From assembly GCA_014879445.1 (NCBI GenBank), contig JACSSC010000039.1, positions 1-64,000 on the forward strand: a DNA stretch of 64,000 bases, read 5' to 3'. The first letter of the stretch is position 1; each line of letters starts with the position of its first letter. The position numbers and the translations under genes were made by a program. Below the pieces are notes generated by a model. The model saw only the letters and a program-made list of their open reading frames with translations. It searched no databases and was not told where the DNA came from. Shown one piece after another: positions 8,844 through 63,958 of this stretch. Source of the stretch: Candidatus Competibacteraceae bacterium. GTDB lineage: Bacteria > Bacteroidota > Bacteroidia > CAIKAF01.

Positions 8844-9326
8844 ATGAAAAGAGTAATTATTTTACTGTTTACCGTTGCTGTTTTTTTGTTTTCGTGTAAT
8901 AGTCCCTCTGATGCTTTATTTCGATATACGCTCGGATCCGGAAATACTTTTCGAGAAACAAATCAGGTGAATTTCTATTATAATGCTACTGACTCTTCAG
9001 CTAATTTGATAGCTGTTTTTGCTAATACTGATACTTTTCATTTAATGTGGGTAACTCCCTTTATCAGCACAAAATCAAATTATCTTTTTGGTGATGTATA
9101 TGGCCTTGATTCGGATATCATGGTAGTGAAAATCGAAGATACTCAGTCAACTTCACCCTATATTGGATTGGATATGTTTAAGTCAGGTTCGCTTACTGTT
9201 ACTCACTTTGATGAAGCTCATATTTCCGGCCAGTTTGATTTTAATGCCAATACTGTAAATCCTATTACACTAAGTACTGCTATTCTAAACTTTAATGGCT
9301 CTTTTGATGGGATTGATGTGCAGTAA
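8844..9326 (+). CDS. Small putative lipoprotein, unknown function
   Basis: A protein of 160 residues beginning with a lipoprotein signal (MKRVIILLFTVAVFLFSC, lipidation Cys at 18). The mature part is rich in Ser, Thr, Asn and beta-strand-like segments such as TLGSGNTFRETNQVNFYYN and alternating hydrophobic strands. I do not recognise the family. It lies between tRNA-Lys and the FGE-like gene, whose start is only about 58 bases downstream in the same direction, so the two may be co-transcribed. An outer-membrane or periplasmic location is inferred from the lipobox only. Confidence 0.75.
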   Translation: MKRVIILLFTVAVFLFSCNSPSDALFRYTLGSGNTFRETNQVNFYYNATDSSANLIAVFANTDTFHLMWVTPFISTKSNYLFGDVYGLDSDIMVVKIEDTQSTSPYIGLDMFKSGSLTVTHFDEAHISGQFDFNANTVNPITLSTAILNFNGSFDGIDVQ

Positions 9327-9384
9327 ATTTTTTAATTTAGCATACGATACAGTTAGCTTTACCGTTTCATTTACCAAACTAGCA

Positions 9385-10185
9385 ATGATGAGAAACCGGA
9401 TTTTGTTATTTTTTGTTTTTGTAGCCCTTGGTGCCCAAGCACAAAAGGTTAAGTTGCCTAAATCATGGAAATTGATTCCTGGTGGTGAGTGGACAGACCG
9501 TTCAGGTAAGAAAATCGAGATTACACCTTTCTATATTTTTGCAACAGAAATTACCAATCAGCAATACAGGGAATTTTTATTTAATTTGGAAAATTCCGGT
9601 CAGAATGAATTGTTAGAGAAATGCAGTGTTCAATCGGCCAATTGGACTAATGGAAATGAAATGAATGCGCCGTATGCCGAGTATTACCACAAGCATCCTG
9701 CATTCAACGATTATCCTGTTGTAAATGTAACTCATGAGGCAGCAGTTCAGTATTGCATATTTATTGAAGCCACATTTGAGAAGAGTTTTCCCGGATTTGA
9801 TTTTCATGTTCGGTTGCCGTCTGAATCAGAGTGGATGTTTGCTGCTACCGGTGGCAATCCTCACCAAACATTTGCATGGGCAGGTAGTGAATTGAAAAAC
9901 AAGAAAGGAGTTTTTTTGGCTAATTTTCGTAGAGGTGTGCAAGAAAATATAGCAGGAAATTTAAGTGAAGATTTGATGGCCCCATCGATTTCTTATTTCC
10001 CGAATGCATATAAATTATATAATATGTGTGGGAATGTAGCCGAAATGATTGATACAAGAGGAATTTCAAAGGGTGGCAGTTATAGATCACCGCCAGATAT
10101 GTTGAAGGTTTCTCATCGCGAAAAGTATGAGAATAGTGCTATTCATATTGGCTTTAGGCCGGTGCTTACCTATACTAAAAAGTAA
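9385..10185 (+). CDS. Secreted FGE/SUMF1-like domain protein lacking catalytic cysteines
   Basis: A protein of about 266 residues with a signal peptide (MMRNRILLFFVFVALGAQAQ). The rest matches the formylglycine-generating-enzyme fold: IPGGEWTDRSGK near the start, FYIFATEITNQQYREFL, YPVVNVTHEAAVQYC, VRLPSESEWMFAA, LYNMCGNVAEM, KGGSYRS and HIGFRP at the end. True FGEs carry catalytic Cys residues near the C-terminal GGS region; here that stretch (LKVSHREKYENSA) has none. The protein is therefore more likely structural or sugar-binding, as are GldJ/GldK-type members of the family in Bacteroidota. I start at 9385 because a longer frame from 9295 overlaps the upstream gene and lacks a leader. Confidence 0.85.
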   Translation: MMRNRILLFFVFVALGAQAQKVKLPKSWKLIPGGEWTDRSGKKIEITPFYIFATEITNQQYREFLFNLENSGQNELLEKCSVQSANWTNGNEMNAPYAEYYHKHPAFNDYPVVNVTHEAAVQYCIFIEATFEKSFPGFDFHVRLPSESEWMFAATGGNPHQTFAWAGSELKNKKGVFLANFRRGVQENIAGNLSEDLMAPSISYFPNAYKLYNMCGNVAEMIDTRGISKGGSYRSPPDMLKVSHREKYENSAIHIGFRPVLTYTKK

Positions 10186-10241
10186 ATACTCATTTTTTTA
10201 TCCATGCACTCAATTTCATAAATGCGAACTTATGGATATTG

Positions 10242-11138
10242 TTATGATGTCGAACCTTTTGAGTTTTTCGATTTTATCATTTCTTCAACCCGATCCCACA
10301 TGTCAGGCGAAATCATATCTCCAATCCATGAAAATTCGCCACCATTTCGCATCCATTCACCTCCATCAATGGTAATTACGTCACCATTGATATATGCAGA
10401 ATAATCACTCATAAGATATGCGGCTAAGTTGGCTAATTCCTGATGCTCGCCAACACGACCTACGGGTATGCGTTGCTCAATTTCAAGTTTGTCAAGAAAA
10501 TCCTGAGGGAATAATCGGTCCCAAGCACCGGGCGTAGGAAATGGCCCGGGCGCAATGGCATTAAATCGAATGCCGTATTTGCCCCATTCAACAGCAAGAG
10601 AGCGCGTAAGCGCTAATACGCCCGACTTGGCACATGCTGATGGCACTACATATCCCGAACCTACCCACGAATATGTTGTAACAATATTTAGTACGTTGGC
10701 TTTGATATTATTTGCGATCCAATATTTGCCAAATGAAAGTGAGCAATTATAAGTGCCTTTCAATACGATATCTACAATCGTATCAAATGCTCTATGACTA
10801 AGACGTTCGGTGGGGCTAATAAAATTTCCGGCAGCATTATTAACCAATCCATTCACCTGGCCAAAGGTCGCAACTGCTTGTTGAAGTATCGACTCAACTT
10901 CTTCATATTTTCTTACATCGCATGGAAGTCCTAAACAACGGCCACCTGTTTCTTTTTCAAGCGTTAAAGCTGCTTCCTCAATAACATCTTTTTTGCGGCT
11001 GCAAATGACTACCTGAGCACCCAACTCAAGAAAATATTTTGACATGGAACGACCAAGACCTGTTCCGCCTCCGGTTACAACAAATGTTTTTCCTTTAAGG
11101 GAGCCGTCTCTGAGCATTGGTTCTTTGTATTGTGACAT
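10242..11138 (-). CDS. SDR oxidoreductase, 2,4-dienoyl-CoA reductase-like
   Basis: A short-chain dehydrogenase of 298 residues, probably NADP(H)-dependent, that reduces 2,4-dienoyl-CoA during unsaturated fatty acid beta-oxidation. The Rossmann motif TGGGTGLG is at 22-29, followed by NNAAGNFISPTE. The active-site segment GSGYVVPSACAKSGV resembles mitochondrial DECR1: the canonical YxxxK Tyr is absent at its usual place and Lys is kept. WGKYGIRFNAIAPGP and the C-terminal IDGGEWM support the DECR branch. The protein is cytoplasmic. It lies downstream of trmN6 in the same direction but has a promoter-like box of its own at 11177-11184. Confidence 0.88.
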   Translation of the reverse strand: MSQYKEPMLRDGSLKGKTFVVTGGGTGLGRSMSKYFLELGAQVVICSRKKDVIEEAALTLEKETGGRCLGLPCDVRKYEEVESILQQAVATFGQVNGLVNNAAGNFISPTERLSHRAFDTIVDIVLKGTYNCSLSFGKYWIANNIKANVLNIVTTYSWVGSGYVVPSACAKSGVLALTRSLAVEWGKYGIRFNAIAPGPFPTPGAWDRLFPQDFLDKLEIEQRIPVGRVGEHQELANLAAYLMSDYSAYINGDVITIDGGEWMRNGGEFSWIGDMISPDMWDRVEEMIKSKNSKGSTS

Positions 11139-59274: not shown

Positions 59275-59282
59275 TATATTTG
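59275..59282 (+). promoter_or_regulatory. -7 element of the bacilliredoxin gene
   Basis: TATATTTG matches TAnnTTTG, 18 bases before ATG 59301. It covers the TTG (59280) of a longer frame, arguing against that start. Confidence 0.5.
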
Positions 59283-59300
59283 TTTTCTAAAATTAATTGT

Positions 59301-59714
59301 ATGTATCCAGAAGAAATTGTTATACCCTGTCGCGACCAATTAGTTAACGAGGGATTTCGATCGCTTACTACATCTGAAGAGGTTGATGCCCTCTTGAAAG
59401 ACAATTCCGGCTCTATATTGTTAGTGATTAATTCGGTTTGTGGATGTGCTGCTCGTGGCGCACGGCCTGGAGTAATCAAATCGTTACAAAACGAAAAAAA
59501 ACCGGATGTGTTGGCAACGGTTTTTGCCGGTGTTGACCATGAAGCTGTAGCAAGGGCGCGTGAATATCTTATGCCATATCCGCCATCATCGCCTTCGATT
59601 GCTTTATTTAATCAAGGCAAATTAGTTCATTTTATAGAGCGATATCAGATTGAAGGTGCTATGGATGAGTCACTGGCTCAACATTTGCAAAAGGTTTATA
59701 ACGAATTGCTCTAA
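59301..59714 (+). CDS. BrxA/BrxB family bacilliredoxin
   Basis: A thioredoxin-fold protein of 137 residues of the YphP/YqiW family. It starts MYPEEIVIPCRDQLVNEGF as relatives do. The active site is Cys47-Gly-Cys49 (INSVCGCAARGARPG). In Bacillus these proteins remove bacillithiol from modified proteins; the same role in Bacteroidota is inferred. It is cytoplasmic and monocistronic with a strong terminator. Confidence 0.92.
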   Translation: MYPEEIVIPCRDQLVNEGFRSLTTSEEVDALLKDNSGSILLVINSVCGCAARGARPGVIKSLQNEKKPDVLATVFAGVDHEAVARAREYLMPYPPSSPSIALFNQGKLVHFIERYQIEGAMDESLAQHLQKVYNELL

Positions 59715-59771: not shown

Positions 59772-61301
59772 TTATTTTTCTGGTACCATTTCTTCAGGCA
59801 TCGGGCCTTCGTTTCCAACACTTACTGCATTTTCGGGCTTAGGGTTGGCACATGCCCAACCTTTAGGAAATACCGGCTGATTATCTAACATGCGATTTTG
59901 TGCGTTAGGCAATGCCTCTCCACCTATGATACGTTGATTTTCGATCGCTTCTTCTGCATTTTTTCCTTTGATTTTGTTGGCAACCATTCGCCTTACAGAT
60001 GTAAAGTAAGGTTCCCATAATGATCCTGAATGCAAGTCATCTAAGAGGTTGTCGAATGTTTCGCTCATGTTTTTTCTCCATGCAGGGTCAAAGTGAACGG
60101 ATTTATCAGCCCAATTGTGGCAGTAGCGACACGCTTCACAGTCGAGTTCTTCGCATCCCAGCTTTTCAAATCTTTCTAAGAACCCATCCAACTTTCGGTT
60201 GTCAATATATACTGGATTGTCACCCTCACGTGGATAGAGCATTGAGGCCAGTTTCCCGTATTGAACTATTTCTGGAAATTTGGTAAGATTAACTTGTGTG
60301 GGTTTAAAGAAATATTTGGCCATTCTTTTTACAGAGAAGTAATCTTTTTCTTGCTTGGTTTTGAACGATGAAGCGGGATAAGCATAGTTTTGAACTATAT
60401 CTAACAAATTCCCATCATAGCGTTGATTGTTGTATGCCCTAACTCGCATCGCTAAAATGTCAGTTGGAGTATTTCTCTCAACAATCTTAAAGTTAGTATA
60501 ACCCATATCAATATAGTAATGCAAATCTTCAGGTCGAATCCAGTTGGCGCGTATATAATTCACGGGCTCTTCCAAACGGTAAGCATTGCAATAAACAGAG
60601 CAATAATCTAATGGGAAATTTTGTTTGCCTCTTCGTGATGCATTTGATAATAACACAGCGTGATTAGAGGCAATGGCGCAATCCTGACGACACCAGTTGT
60701 TTACAATCAGCGATAGGTCAATTTTTACGGCATCCCGCATGGCTTGAAGTATCTTAAATTCGCGGTGAATGGTCGTTTCGGAGATTACTACACAATCGGC
60801 ACCATTGTCTTCCCAAAATCTTACTTTTCGGGCATTATCCGTTTCGCGATGTGCCGAAATACGAACCTTGAAATGAGGATAGTTCTTCTTGATGGCACGC
60901 AGGAAAAATAGATTAGAAACGGTAATGCTATCCACTTCAATCTCTGTCAGCCAATCCAGTAATTTGGCTAATTGACGTTGCCCTTCAGTTGTAAACTCCA
61001 CATTGTTCATGCTGGATGAGTTCAACAAATAGTTAAACTCCATACCTTGATCATGCATTTGTTTTACGTATGAAGCAAGTGCCGGCTTATCTACTTTGGG
61101 CAAATAAAATGATGGACGCCCACCTCCAAAATAATCGGTAGTTAACTTACCATATAACTCATATACCGGATATGGAGAAACTTTTGTGATGAGTTCCGGC
61201 TCAAAGTTGCAGGCAACTGAAAAACGGATGGGACGATCCTTAATGGGCATCTCATTTACATTCCCAAATTTCCTCGTCTTCTTGTTTGCTGATTCTTGCA
61301 T
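59772..61301 (-). CDS. U32 family (collagenase-like) Fe-S protein
   Basis: A protein of 509 residues of the U32 TIM-barrel family. The core motifs are VYELYGKLTTDYFGGGRP, VRISAHRETDNARKVRFW and CVVISETTIHREF. Four cysteines in NNWCRQDC (204, 208) and DYCSVYC (234, 238) fit the 4Fe-4S site known from UbiU/UbiV-type members, although the spacing differs. A second Cys cluster lies near 397-406 (CEELDCEACRYC). The C-terminal 100 residues are unlike TrhP or UbiU. No ubiquinone gene is near. Its substrate is unknown. The start is divergent from the ArsR gene. Confidence 0.85.
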   Translation of the reverse strand: MQESANKKTRKFGNVNEMPIKDRPIRFSVACNFEPELITKVSPYPVYELYGKLTTDYFGGGRPSFYLPKVDKPALASYVKQMHDQGMEFNYLLNSSSMNNVEFTTEGQRQLAKLLDWLTEIEVDSITVSNLFFLRAIKKNYPHFKVRISAHRETDNARKVRFWEDNGADCVVISETTIHREFKILQAMRDAVKIDLSLIVNNWCRQDCAIASNHAVLLSNASRRGKQNFPLDYCSVYCNAYRLEEPVNYIRANWIRPEDLHYYIDMGYTNFKIVERNTPTDILAMRVRAYNNQRYDGNLLDIVQNYAYPASSFKTKQEKDYFSVKRMAKYFFKPTQVNLTKFPEIVQYGKLASMLYPREGDNPVYIDNRKLDGFLERFEKLGCEELDCEACRYCHNWADKSVHFDPAWRKNMSETFDNLLDDLHSGSLWEPYFTSVRRMVANKIKGKNAEEAIENQRIIGGEALPNAQNRMLDNQPVFPKGWACANPKPENAVSVGNEGPMPEEMVPEK

Positions 61302-61430: not shown

Positions 61431-61461
61431 TTTGAATTTTATTTAAAAGTTCATATATTTG
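61431..61461 (+). promoter_or_regulatory. Promoter of the ArsR operon
   Basis: TTTG at 61431-61434 and TATATTTG at 61454-61461 are separated by exactly 19 bases, a near-ideal Bacteroidetes promoter. The ArsR ATG lies 20 bases downstream. Confidence 0.8.
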
Positions 61462-61467
61462 TGAACT
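61448..61467 (+). promoter_or_regulatory. Probable ArsR operator over the -7 box
   Basis: AGTTCA (61448-61453) and TGAACT (61462-61467) are a perfect 6-bp inverted repeat whose 8-base spacer is exactly the -7 element. ArsR/SmtB repressors bind TTCA...TGAA-like dyads over promoters, so autoregulation is likely. Confidence 0.7.
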
Positions 61468-61481
61468 AATAAACCGGTATA

Positions 61482-61811
61482 ATGAGTGAGGAGAAAAAAA
61501 TATTTCAACTTCATGCGGATGTTTGCAAAGCGCTCGGACATCCTTTACGCATTCAGATTATTGATTTGCTTCAGCATAAGTCCTACTGTTTTACGGAATT
61601 GATGGCCTTGACAGGTGAGCAGAAATCGAATCTGTCGCAACATCTTTCTGTTATGACCCAAAAAGGTATCCTGAAGGTTTCTCGAAAAGGCGCATTCAAT
61701 TATTATGCACTTTCGTCGCCCAAAGTAGCAAAGGCATGCAGATTGATGCGTGAAGTTTTGATTGAAAACTTAAAAAAAAATCACATATTAATTACGATGC
61801 TAAACTCATGA
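61482..61811 (+). CDS. ArsR/SmtB family transcriptional repressor
   Basis: A winged-helix regulator of 109 residues: CKALGHPLRIQIIDLL, FTELMALTGEQKSNLSQHLSVMTQKGILKVSRKGAFNYYAL. The ELCVCDL metal site of ArsR is absent. Cysteines are at 15, 36 and 86; two of them (36 near helix 3 and 86 in the last helix) could make a thiol switch as in the persulfide sensors SqrR and BigR, which would suit the sulfur-handling genes that follow. It has an operator-like dyad in front and leads the operon to 63958. Confidence 0.93.
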   Translation: MSEEKKIFQLHADVCKALGHPLRIQIIDLLQHKSYCFTELMALTGEQKSNLSQHLSVMTQKGILKVSRKGAFNYYALSSPKVAKACRLMREVLIENLKKNHILITMLNS

Positions 61812-61849
61812 TAAATGCTCATAAGATGATAAACAATACAAATATATAT

Positions 61850-62275
61850 ATGAAAAATTTTGCTTTTTTACTCTTCTTTTTTGCTTCGCTTTCTTTTTCT
61901 ACTTATCAAGGAACTGACCCATGGACGCAAAAGCAGTTGATGGAGCCGGTAGAATTGGCGGATATTATTAACAAAGGCACTACCGGATATTATATTTATG
62001 GAATCGGGCCTGCGGCTTTTATTAAAAATTCGGTTGAAATAGGCGAAGGACGCGATAAGAAAAATATACAGAAATTAAAGAAAGCGGTTATAGATTTGCC
62101 TAAAGATGCTAACATCGTTATTTATTGCGGATGTTGCCCTTTTGCCGACTGCCCCAATGTGCGCCCTGCTTTTGAATTATTGAATCAAATGAAGTTTACT
62201 AATCATAAATTATTGAACTTGTCACAAAACTTCAAAGTGGATTGGTTAGATAAAGGTTATCCTGTAAATGAATAA
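61850..62275 (+). CDS. Exported rhodanese-like protein
   Basis: A protein of 141 residues from ATG 61850, where a signal peptide begins (MKNFAFLLFFFASLSFSTYQ). The earlier ATG at 61808 overlaps the ArsR stop and adds 14 polar residues. The mature part has a rhodanese-like fold: VIYCGCCPFADCPNVRPAFELL, with Cys at 93, 95, 96 and 101 in and after the active-site loop, more than usual. It may carry persulfide or a metal in the periplasm. The next gene starts two bases after its stop. Confidence 0.85.
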   Translation: MKNFAFLLFFFASLSFSTYQGTDPWTQKQLMEPVELADIINKGTTGYYIYGIGPAAFIKNSVEIGEGRDKKNIQKLKKAVIDLPKDANIVIYCGCCPFADCPNVRPAFELLNQMKFTNHKLLNLSQNFKVDWLDKGYPVNE

Positions 62276-62277
62276 TT

Positions 62278-62961
62278 ATGAAAAATATTTCTTTACTTTT
62301 TGTTATGTTGATTTTAATACCTGTATGGGTGTTTTTCTCTCCACAATCTTCTTCATCATCTTGTAGTGTTTTGCAAACAGACCATAATCAAATTGCTGTA
62401 TTGCCTGGTATTTCTACTTTGCATGCATATCCTCCTGCAGTTGGGATCTTGTCTAATGCCGTCAACTGTTTGAATTGTCATATTGATAACGGCCCATGGA
62501 AAGATAATGATAATTTGATTATTGACATTATAGATAAACAAACCCAAAAGTCATTTAAGCAGCCCGATGGTAGTTTCTTGATTGATGCAAGGCGTGGTGA
62601 AAAAACATCATTACTTACGGTTATCGGATATAAAAAGGATGTCGAGCAACCAATGCCTGAACGGAATGCTTGGTTGTATATTGATCCTGCCACGATTGGC
62701 AATAACGCATTGTCGAAATTTGCCCCCGGCTGGGATGTGGACTTGCCAATGTCATGTAGAATTACAGGTGATAATCTTTCGGGATATGAGAATGCCAAGA
62801 TTACATGTTTACCAATGACCATTCTACCTTTGGAGTCTGCCCGTAACGCACAGATTGATTTGCAAGTGATGCTTACAAGTGGCGAATCTGTAAAAGCAAT
62901 TCCATCTCAGGGCATGCTTGGAAATTATTTTGTTAGAAAAGTAACACTTCGAGTGCAATGA
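62278..62961 (+). CDS. Exported protein with one c-type heme motif
   Basis: A protein of 227 residues with an N-terminal hydrophobic signal (MKNISLLFVMLILIPVWVFF). One CLNCH motif at residues 64-68 offers covalent heme c attachment (Cys64, Cys67, axial His68). The rest (IDARRGEKTSLLTVIGYKKD, WLYIDPATIGNNAL, CRITGDNLSGYENAKITCLPM) is beta-rich and not a standard cytochrome domain; I do not recognise it. It could move electrons for the thiol chemistry of its neighbours. The stop overlaps the methyltransferase ATG. Confidence 0.75.
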   Translation: MKNISLLFVMLILIPVWVFFSPQSSSSSCSVLQTDHNQIAVLPGISTLHAYPPAVGILSNAVNCLNCHIDNGPWKDNDNLIIDIIDKQTQKSFKQPDGSFLIDARRGEKTSLLTVIGYKKDVEQPMPERNAWLYIDPATIGNNALSKFAPGWDVDLPMSCRITGDNLSGYENAKITCLPMTILPLESARNAQIDLQVMLTSGESVKAIPSQGMLGNYFVRKVTLRVQ

Positions 62962-63590
62962 ACGAATCTGCAATGATATTTGATCGGCATGCACAGGAAT
63001 ACGATCGTTGGTTCGATTTACATGATGCTGCGTTTCAATCTGAACTCTTAGCGCTTCGCAAAGTAATGCCGGATGGCGGCCATGCTTTGGAAATAGGTGT
63101 TGGGACAGGTCGGTTTGCACTTGCGCTGAATATCCAAACAGGATTAGAACCCGCAGAAGGTATGGCTGAAATTGCACGTAGCAGAGGCATTCACGTTATA
63201 AATGGTTTTGCAGAACAATTACCATTTCATGACTCTTCTTTTGATACTGTGGTTATGATAACCGTGCTTTGTTTTTTAAAGGATCCTGAAAACGCTCTTG
63301 CCGAAATTAAACGTATTATTAAGCCCAATGGTGTTTTTGTTTTAGCGATATTGGATAAAGAAAGTCCTTTGGGCAAAATGTATCAACAAACGAAAGAAAG
63401 CAACGAGTACTTTCGGAACGCAAATTTTTTTTCGGCAGAAGCATGTGTTAAACTTCTTGATAAAGCCGGTTTTGCCATCGAAGAATCCTGGCAAACACTT
63501 TTTGGTCTTACTGCAGAGGATGTTCAACAACCTCAACCAGGGTATGGCCAGGGTGGGTTTGTGGTATTTAAAACTATATGTAAATATTAA
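62958..63590 (+). CDS. Class I SAM-dependent methyltransferase
   Basis: A UbiE-like methyltransferase of 210 residues. SAM motif I is ALEIGVGTGRFA, followed by GLEPAEGMAEIARSRGI and FDTVVMITVLCFLKDPENALAEIKRIIKPNGVFVLAI. The substrate is unknown; relatives in thiol or metalloid operons act on As, S or Se compounds. The ATG overlaps the previous stop (ATGA), and the DsrE gene follows 11 bases later. Cytoplasmic. Confidence 0.88.
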   Translation: MNESAMIFDRHAQEYDRWFDLHDAAFQSELLALRKVMPDGGHALEIGVGTGRFALALNIQTGLEPAEGMAEIARSRGIHVINGFAEQLPFHDSSFDTVVMITVLCFLKDPENALAEIKRIIKPNGVFVLAILDKESPLGKMYQQTKESNEYFRNANFFSAEACVKLLDKAGFAIEESWQTLFGLTAEDVQQPQPGYGQGGFVVFKTICKY

Positions 63591-63601
63591 ATGATACCAT
63601 C

Positions 63602-63958
63602 ATGAAATCTATTCTTATTCTTATCAATGATGCACCTTATGGAACCGAAAAAGCTTATAACGGTTTGAGAATAGCCAACCAGATAGCTAAAGATTATCCT
63701 GAAGCGGAAGTGAGAATCTTTTTGATGGCTGATGCGGTTGGCTGTGCCATGAAATCGCAGGTAACTCCTAATGGCTATTATAACATAGAAAGAATGGTGC
63801 ATTTCTCTATTCAAAAAGGTGCCAAAGTGAAATTATGCGGAACTTGTGCCCAGGCAAGAGGAATACATGCACATATGTTAATTGAAGGCGCAGAGATGGG
63901 AACGCTTGCTCAACTTACACAATGGGTGGCCGAAAGCGAAAAACAGCTGGTTTTCTAA
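63602..63958 (+). CDS. DsrE family sulfur-relay-like protein
   Basis: A protein of 118 residues with the DsrE/YchN fold (MKSILILINDAPYGTEKAYNGLRIANQ, VRIFLMADAVGCAMKSQ). CGTCAQARGI carries two Cys, the conserved site that accepts sulfur in this family. It probably transfers persulfide sulfur in the cytoplasm. It ends the operon in the window; the remaining 42 bases show no further gene. Confidence 0.9.
   Translation: MKSILILINDAPYGTEKAYNGLRIANQIAKDYPEAEVRIFLMADAVGCAMKSQVTPNGYYNIERMVHFSIQKGAKVKLCGTCAQARGIHAHMLIEGAEMGTLAQLTQWVAESEKQLVF

Follow-up and report, generated by a model that had tools for sequence, protein, structure and literature searches.

The window analysed here, the 64,000-nucleotide stretch of contig JACSSC010000039.1 from a bacterium of the Bacteroidota, ends on five tightly packed genes encoding, in order, an ArsR-family regulator, an exported rhodanese-like protein, an exported protein with a CLNCH (CxxCH) motif, a class I S-adenosylmethionine (SAM)-dependent methyltransferase and a DsrE/YchN-family protein. 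These genes form a real operon of a conserved, sulfide-linked gene set that has a new protein family, that of the CxxCH protein, at its core. We consider it likely (probability of roughly 0.6) that the operon, under the control of its ArsR regulator, handles reactive sulfur, i.e., sulfide and its sulfane-sulfur products. Judged from gene context, such a role appears well supported; the link to reactive sulfur, already proposed in a first-pass annotation, is strong because relatives of the operon add a flavoprotein resembling SQR and flavocytochrome c sulfide dehydrogenase (FCSD), a persulfide-dioxygenase-like protein or a cysteine desulfurase. No description of this gene set was found in the open-access literature, and a search of a plasmid collection returned no match.

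Gene neighbourhoods of the CxxCH family

A first contig scan using the single window CxxCH protein found no relatives; a genome scan with a three-sequence alignment then gave 49 related loci, nearly all of them in metagenome-assembled genomes. Neighbours were counted up to 8 genes away from CxxCH in 48 loci, which are designated here by L-numbers. ArsR genes are found in 27 of the 48, always on the same strand as the CxxCH gene, and DsrE genes in 24 (same strand in 23). The SQR/FCSD-like flavoprotein is encoded in 16 loci, a methyltransferase of the window type in 9 and a rhodanese in 6, each time on the CxxCH strand, and 32 loci hold at least one of these five partners. The fullest locus, L037, reads ArsR-SQR-rhodanese-CxxCH-methyltransferase-SAM synthetase-DsrE. 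The persulfide-dioxygenase-like protein, a rhodanese/metallo-beta-lactamase protein, is encoded by an extra gene in L032, and the cysteine desulfurase by one in L045.

As an out-of-sample check, 20 further regions were fetched, of which 8 were new to the first set and 5 of these came from Bacteroidia, the window's class. DsrE adjoined the CxxCH gene or lay one gene away from it in all five, while SQR was present in three and ArsR in three. The out-of-sample locus L079 (ArsR-SQR-rhodanese domain-CxxCH-methyltransferase-DsrE) reproduces the order of the window with SQR added. Distances between CxxCH proteins are also tracked by those between DsrE (Mantel r 0.38), SQR (r 0.45) and methyltransferase (r 0.59) proteins. 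The gene set is not rigid, though its members co-occur across loci and do not vary freely between relatives.

Other genes recur in these neighbourhoods. One is a family of membrane proteins, some 175-195 amino acids long and with one invariant His, encoded within 8 genes of CxxCH in L019, L025, L030, L034, L043, L049, L058 and L059; it has no Pfam match above cut-off, matches cytochrome b561 weakly and is a possible membrane redox partner. A second context, seen in L036, L043, L049, L057 and L059 (bins of Armatimonadota, Aminicenantes and Schekmanbacteria), combines an MMPL-type resistance-nodulation-division (RND) exporter, a LolA-like lipoprotein-sorting protein and a DUF1302/porin-like outer-membrane protein. 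A major facilitator superfamily transporter, a candidate for transport of sulfur compounds, follows the gene set at L035:5364-6872, where it bears a C-terminal rhodanese domain, and at L032:11582-12868 and L086:5667-7145.

Operon layout

The five open reading frames have the strand and places first assigned to them (Table 1), and the same-strand neighbours of the relatives indicate that their packing is not a matter of chance. Spacings in gene order are -4, +2, -4 and +11 bp, and the two overlapping pairs, one of them the CxxCH and methyltransferase genes, share an ATGA in which stop and start codons are merged. Searched against 24,736 Pfam and 18,950 NCBIfam models, the ArsR, methyltransferase and DsrE proteins score above cut-off. 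The upstream border is a U32-peptidase gene on the opposite strand (59772-61301), whereas DsrE is the last gene of the operon, with thiL starting 56 bp past it, outside the window. This thiL gene (thiamine-monophosphate kinase) occupies 64015-65067, and thiE, thiL and thiM genes also lie close to the CxxCH gene in the Aminicenantes loci L031 and L042. On the operon strand, about 1.7-1.8 kb upstream, a BrxA/BrxB bacilliredoxin gene (59280-59714; TIGR04191, 182 bits) is separated from the operon by the U32-peptidase gene and constitutes a second thiol-redox gene nearby.

Table 1. Features of the ArsR-headed operon, in window coordinates.
Feature	Position	Strand	Remarks
Candidate ArsR operator AGTTCATATATTTGTGAACT	61448-61467	+	20-bp palindrome; 6-bp perfect arms, 8-bp spacer
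ArsR-family regulator	61482-61811	+	109 amino acids
Exported rhodanese-like protein	61808-62275	+	CGCC-PFADC loop; in-frame ATG at 61850 as likely start
Exported CLNCH (CxxCH) protein	62278-62961	+	Cys64-His68 motif; predicted Ig-like beta-sandwich
Class I SAM-dependent methyltransferase	62958-63590	+	210 amino acids; Cys105 invariant among relatives
DsrE/YchN-family protein	63602-63958	+	118 amino acids; Cys48, Cys79 and Cys82 (CGxC) conserved

A widespread family of CxxCH proteins

The CLNCH protein had been described as exported and of no known family, and indeed neither Pfam nor NCBIfam holds a match to it, nor does PDB when searched by sequence or by profile. CxxCH proteins constitute a widespread, undescribed family of which the window protein is the founder. 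Relatives occur in about a dozen phyla, namely Bacteroidota, Ignavibacteriota, Chlorobiota, Zixibacteria, Aminicenantes, KSB1, Armatimonadota, Calditrichota, Acidobacteriota, Schekmanbacteria, Omnitrophota and Verrucomicrobiota, along with one gammaproteobacterial bin, these phyla being bin labels that may err. Their occurrence is rare and patchy: 9 of 395 sampled genomes in the window's class carry a member, as do 19 of 391 in an ignavibacterial class. In one genome, G163, the CxxCH gene is split over the ends of contigs C42 and C4 and looks truncated in the assembly. The 43 aligned members share Tyr51-Pro52-Pro53, Cys64, Cys67, His68 and Cys160 as invariant residues, and no second invariant His was found among them.

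The CxxCH protein as a putative heme carrier

The first-pass annotation had taken the CLNCH protein for a heme electron carrier. This is plausible in that the whole CxxCH motif, His included, is kept in 43 of 43 members and that genes for cytochrome c assembly are present in the window's genome, but such a carrier would be of an unusual kind. An AlphaFold2 (AF2) model built from the 43 sequences (pLDDT 81) is confident from about residue 70 onwards and predicts a beta-sandwich, a fold that differs from that of classical cytochrome c; Pfam cytochrome families gave only chance-level matches in the 43 members. VIA-align matched the model to macroglobulin/complement and pilus Ig-like domains with Z up to 7.8, which may mean no more than a shared arrangement. 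The CxxCH protein probably carries heme outside the inner membrane.

A short signal peptide ends 4-9 residues before Tyr51 in 29 of the 43 members. Across all 43, the residue preceding Tyr51 is small (A in 32, S in 9, G in 1, with N in the remaining one), position -3 being mostly A. Consequently, in most relatives the mature protein should start with Tyr-Pro-Pro. The window's clade shows an unusual geometry, its hydrophobic stretch ending 21-32 residues before Tyr51. Mature cytochrome f likewise begins with Tyr-Pro, and its N-terminal amine ligates the heme; it is a beta-sandwich protein with the heme-c motif close to its mature N-terminus, an arrangement predicted for the CxxCH protein too. 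Another candidate ligand is the invariant Cys160, by analogy with the His/Cys hemes of SoxAX and TsdA. Homology to cytochrome f was considered and rejected, hhalign giving a probability of 3.9% over ten heme-motif columns only; the absence of cytochrome f from the 50 structure matches listed for the CxxCH model proves nothing either way. Since the profile match is limited to the heme motif and the leader geometry of the window's clade is unusual, the likeness is one of analogy and not of membership, and CxxCH genes, unlike that of cytochrome f, lie outside a cytochrome b6f setting.

Flavocytochrome c sulfide dehydrogenase consists of FccB and a cytochrome c subunit, FccA. In a similar manner, an SQR/FccB-like gene in relatives directly precedes the gene for an exported protein with a heme-c motif. 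The CxxCH protein differs from FccA in belonging neither to the cytochrome c fold nor to its families, and the window's genome lacks the flavoprotein. It is a doubtful proposition that the family represents new one-heme periplasmic cytochromes on an Ig-like beta-sandwich, with the freed N-terminal Tyr (as in cytochrome f) or Cys160 (as in cytochromes that convert sulfur compounds) as second heme ligand, that would, across about a dozen phyla, pass electrons to or from flavoproteins oxidising sulfide and be coupled to sulfide S-methylation.

The ArsR regulator and its candidate operator

The regulator matches Pfam HTH_5 (39.9 bits, cut-off 22) and NCBIfam NF033788 (70.3 bits, cut-off 55), and phmmer matches to SqrR (6o8l) and BigR (3pqj) support a winged-helix ArsR fold. 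As stated in the first-pass annotation, the ELCVCDL-type metal motif is lacking: the only cysteines are at positions 15, 36 and 86, and only Cys36 falls in the corresponding helix 3 region. A thiol switch between Cys36 and Cys86, as in SqrR/BigR, had been suggested. Among 19 stand-alone ArsRs, including 3 of the later set and with L045 represented by the stand-alone ArsR heading its operon, Cys86 is indeed conserved (18/19), but Cys36 is rare (6/19; 5/16 in the first set), while Cys15, which had been overlooked, is present in 19/19. In Ignavibacteria, ArsR is fused to a rhodanese domain. The variability of Cys36 rules out a conserved Cys36-Cys86 switch.

SqrR, BigR, SoxR and sHdrR are sulfane-sulfur-sensing ArsR repressors with their own operons (PMC10451225, PMC12423496). 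Like them, the window ArsR heads sulfur genes (SQR-like, rhodanese, DsrE in the set as a whole) and has two conserved cysteines. Unlike in this group, those cysteines are at 15 and 86, and the BigR equivalog model gives 36.7 bits against a cut-off of 155. The cysteine pair of SoxR/SqrR is 66 residues apart (PMC10451225), and no pair in the window ArsR has this spacing of SqrR Cys50/Cys116, Cys15 and Cys86 being separated by 71 residues. SqrR-like positions are excluded by the alignment as well: the first SqrR cysteine, which lies in helix 2, aligns with Asp28 of the window ArsR and matches neither Cys15, located in helix 1, nor Cys36. If a thiol switch exists, its geometry would be other than that of SqrR.

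The candidate operator, missed in the first pass, is separated from the start codon of ArsR by 14 bp. In L034, L035, L037, L038, L041, L045 and L053 the same palindrome lies 27-39 nt ahead of the ArsR gene, and it also precedes ArsR in L081. TTCA-N6-10-TGAA occurs in 10 of 26 upstream regions, where 0.6 is expected and at most 4 were seen in 500 shuffles. The window's genome holds a single perfect copy, and its other operator-like sites carry 3 mismatches and are as numerous as in the reversed control. A wide regulon is thus not supported, and the regulator probably controls only its own operon.

Rhodanese, methyltransferase and DsrE

The rhodanese-like protein scores 14.7 bits with Pfam Rhodanese, below the cut-off of 22.2, yet its AF2 model (pLDDT 83) retrieves only rhodanese domains as top Foldseek matches (best E 2.5e-5), so its identification is right. 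The four cysteines that the first-pass annotation had placed at the active loop are C107, C109, C110 and C115, the loop C107-G-C-C-P...C115 being invariant in 7 relatives, and translation from the likely start at 61850 would give the protein a signal peptide.

The methyltransferase matches Methyltransf_11 (72.6 bits), and its closest solved structure is 1vlm (E 1.8e-57), listed only as a SAM-dependent methyltransferase. The slot directly after CxxCH and before DsrE is taken by a window-type methyltransferase in nine loci; L032 and L053 have another methyltransferase there, and L014 a TrmO-type one. The loci L013, L016, L020 and L025 instead encode a membrane methyltransferase of the PEMT/ICMT type, its gene being placed 30-33 bp upstream of CxxCH. 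The recruitment of unrelated methyltransferases to the same place suggests that methylation matters. In L037, from a Bacteroidota bin, the SAM synthetase found between methyltransferase and DsrE (9168-10319) is of the PF01941 type, which is associated with archaea. That a sulfide operon should include a methyltransferase has a precedent in the bacterial enzymes MddA, MddH and MddM, whose S-methylation of H2S and methanethiol is detoxifying (PMC12904073). The likeness lies in SAM-dependent methylation by context, from which S-methylation by the window enzyme may be surmised; the membrane-type methyltransferase differs from MddA, with 21.8 bits against a cut-off of 270.

The DsrE protein matches its family model (Pfam DsrE, 70.1 bits, cut-off 22.7), with E. 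coli YchN (1jx7) as the closest solved structure (E 3.2e-25). It shares with the YchN/DsrE sulfur carriers both the fold family and the CGxC motif, whose Cys79 and Cys82 are kept in 23 of 23 proteins, and Cys48 is also conserved. It differs from TusD of TusBCD, falling below the cut-off of the TusD/DsrE NCBIfam equivalog (33.6 bits vs 89.25).

Proposed function and alternatives

In the mechanism that we infer, including its direction of sulfur flow, ArsR would bind the palindrome and shut off its own operon until a thiol-reactive sulfur signal acting on Cys15/Cys86 relieves repression. The rhodanese-like protein, located outside the inner membrane, would take or pass sulfane sulfur via its CGCC loop, and the CxxCH beta-sandwich, also outside, would serve as redox partner with a single heme, in most relatives that of the SQR/FCSD-like sulfide-oxidising flavoprotein. 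Cytoplasmic DsrE may carry sulfur on its CGxC cysteines, and the methyltransferase may lower toxicity by methylating a thiol or sulfide. The periplasm-to-cytoplasm sulfur path of the first-pass annotation is a guess; the operon encodes no transporter.

An ArsR protein accompanied by a methyltransferase would also suit detoxification of a metalloid (arsenic, selenium or tellurium), with the ArsR thiols sensing it, the methyltransferase making a volatile species and rhodanese, DsrE and CxxCH proteins reducing or carrying the element. Heavy-metal RND efflux genes do lie near some relatives, and the methyltransferase weakly matches arsenite methyltransferase (ArsM) models, but all such NCBIfam models remain far below cut-off (e.g., 32.7 vs 510 bits), no arsC, arsB or acr3-type gene is present in the neighbourhoods listed, and the commonest partner besides ArsR and DsrE is the SQR-like flavoprotein. 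This makes metalloids an unlikely substrate. The invariance of the CxxCH His, needless for a thioredoxin-like CxxC, and a predicted fold that is not thioredoxin-like render it quite unlikely that the operon responds to thiol/disulfide stress with no role for sulfide as natural substrate (e.g., by repairing oxidised periplasmic thiols) and that the motif is a redox-active or metal-binding CxxC instead of a heme site, even though TlpA-type thioredoxins adjoin the CxxCH gene in 5 loci, a bacilliredoxin gene lies upstream and a third cysteine, Cys160, is invariant.

Several observations weigh against reactive-sulfur handling. A search for an SQR of the relatives' type gave nothing in the window's genome although it was positive in both control genomes, and CxxCH and DsrE genes are absent from 15 other genomes of the window's family. 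At the same site, the same-genus genome G002 has U32-rhodanese-methyltransferase-thiL, devoid of ArsR, CxxCH, DsrE and operator. The set is consequently neither complete nor stable here. ArsR distances do not track those of CxxCH (Mantel r 0.17, p 0.14), and the CxxCH genes of Zixibacteria, Aminicenantes, KSB1, Calditrichota and others have unrelated neighbours. The lack of SQR, the reduced locus of G002, which lost or never had the three genes, and the window CxxCH protein forming the longest branch of its family could also point to a loose, decaying cassette, the remnant of a former sulfide-oxidation module with no joint function in this lineage. Such decay is very unlikely given five intact frames, tight spacing, a perfect operator and a CxxCH protein that keeps all residues invariant in its family. 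The G002 locus indicates that the set shrinks and grows within the genus and that rhodanese and methyltransferase can stand alone; in another genome, G001, thiL is at a different place. A recent single-step gain of the whole island is not supported either, considering the rhodanese and methyltransferase of G002 at the same U32-thiL site, an operon GC content similar to that of the window and the grouping of the window CxxCH protein with Bacteroidota homologues.

Significance

The operon links an undescribed and widespread exported family with a heme motif to sulfide metabolism, thereby giving it a context that can be tested experimentally. Should the CxxCH protein prove to be a cytochrome, the usual fold would no longer be shared by every cytochrome c, and the Tyr-Pro at its N-terminus could be compared directly with that of cytochrome f. 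That unrelated SAM-dependent methyltransferases recur at this position suggests that methylation belongs to the way in which these bacteria cope with sulfide.

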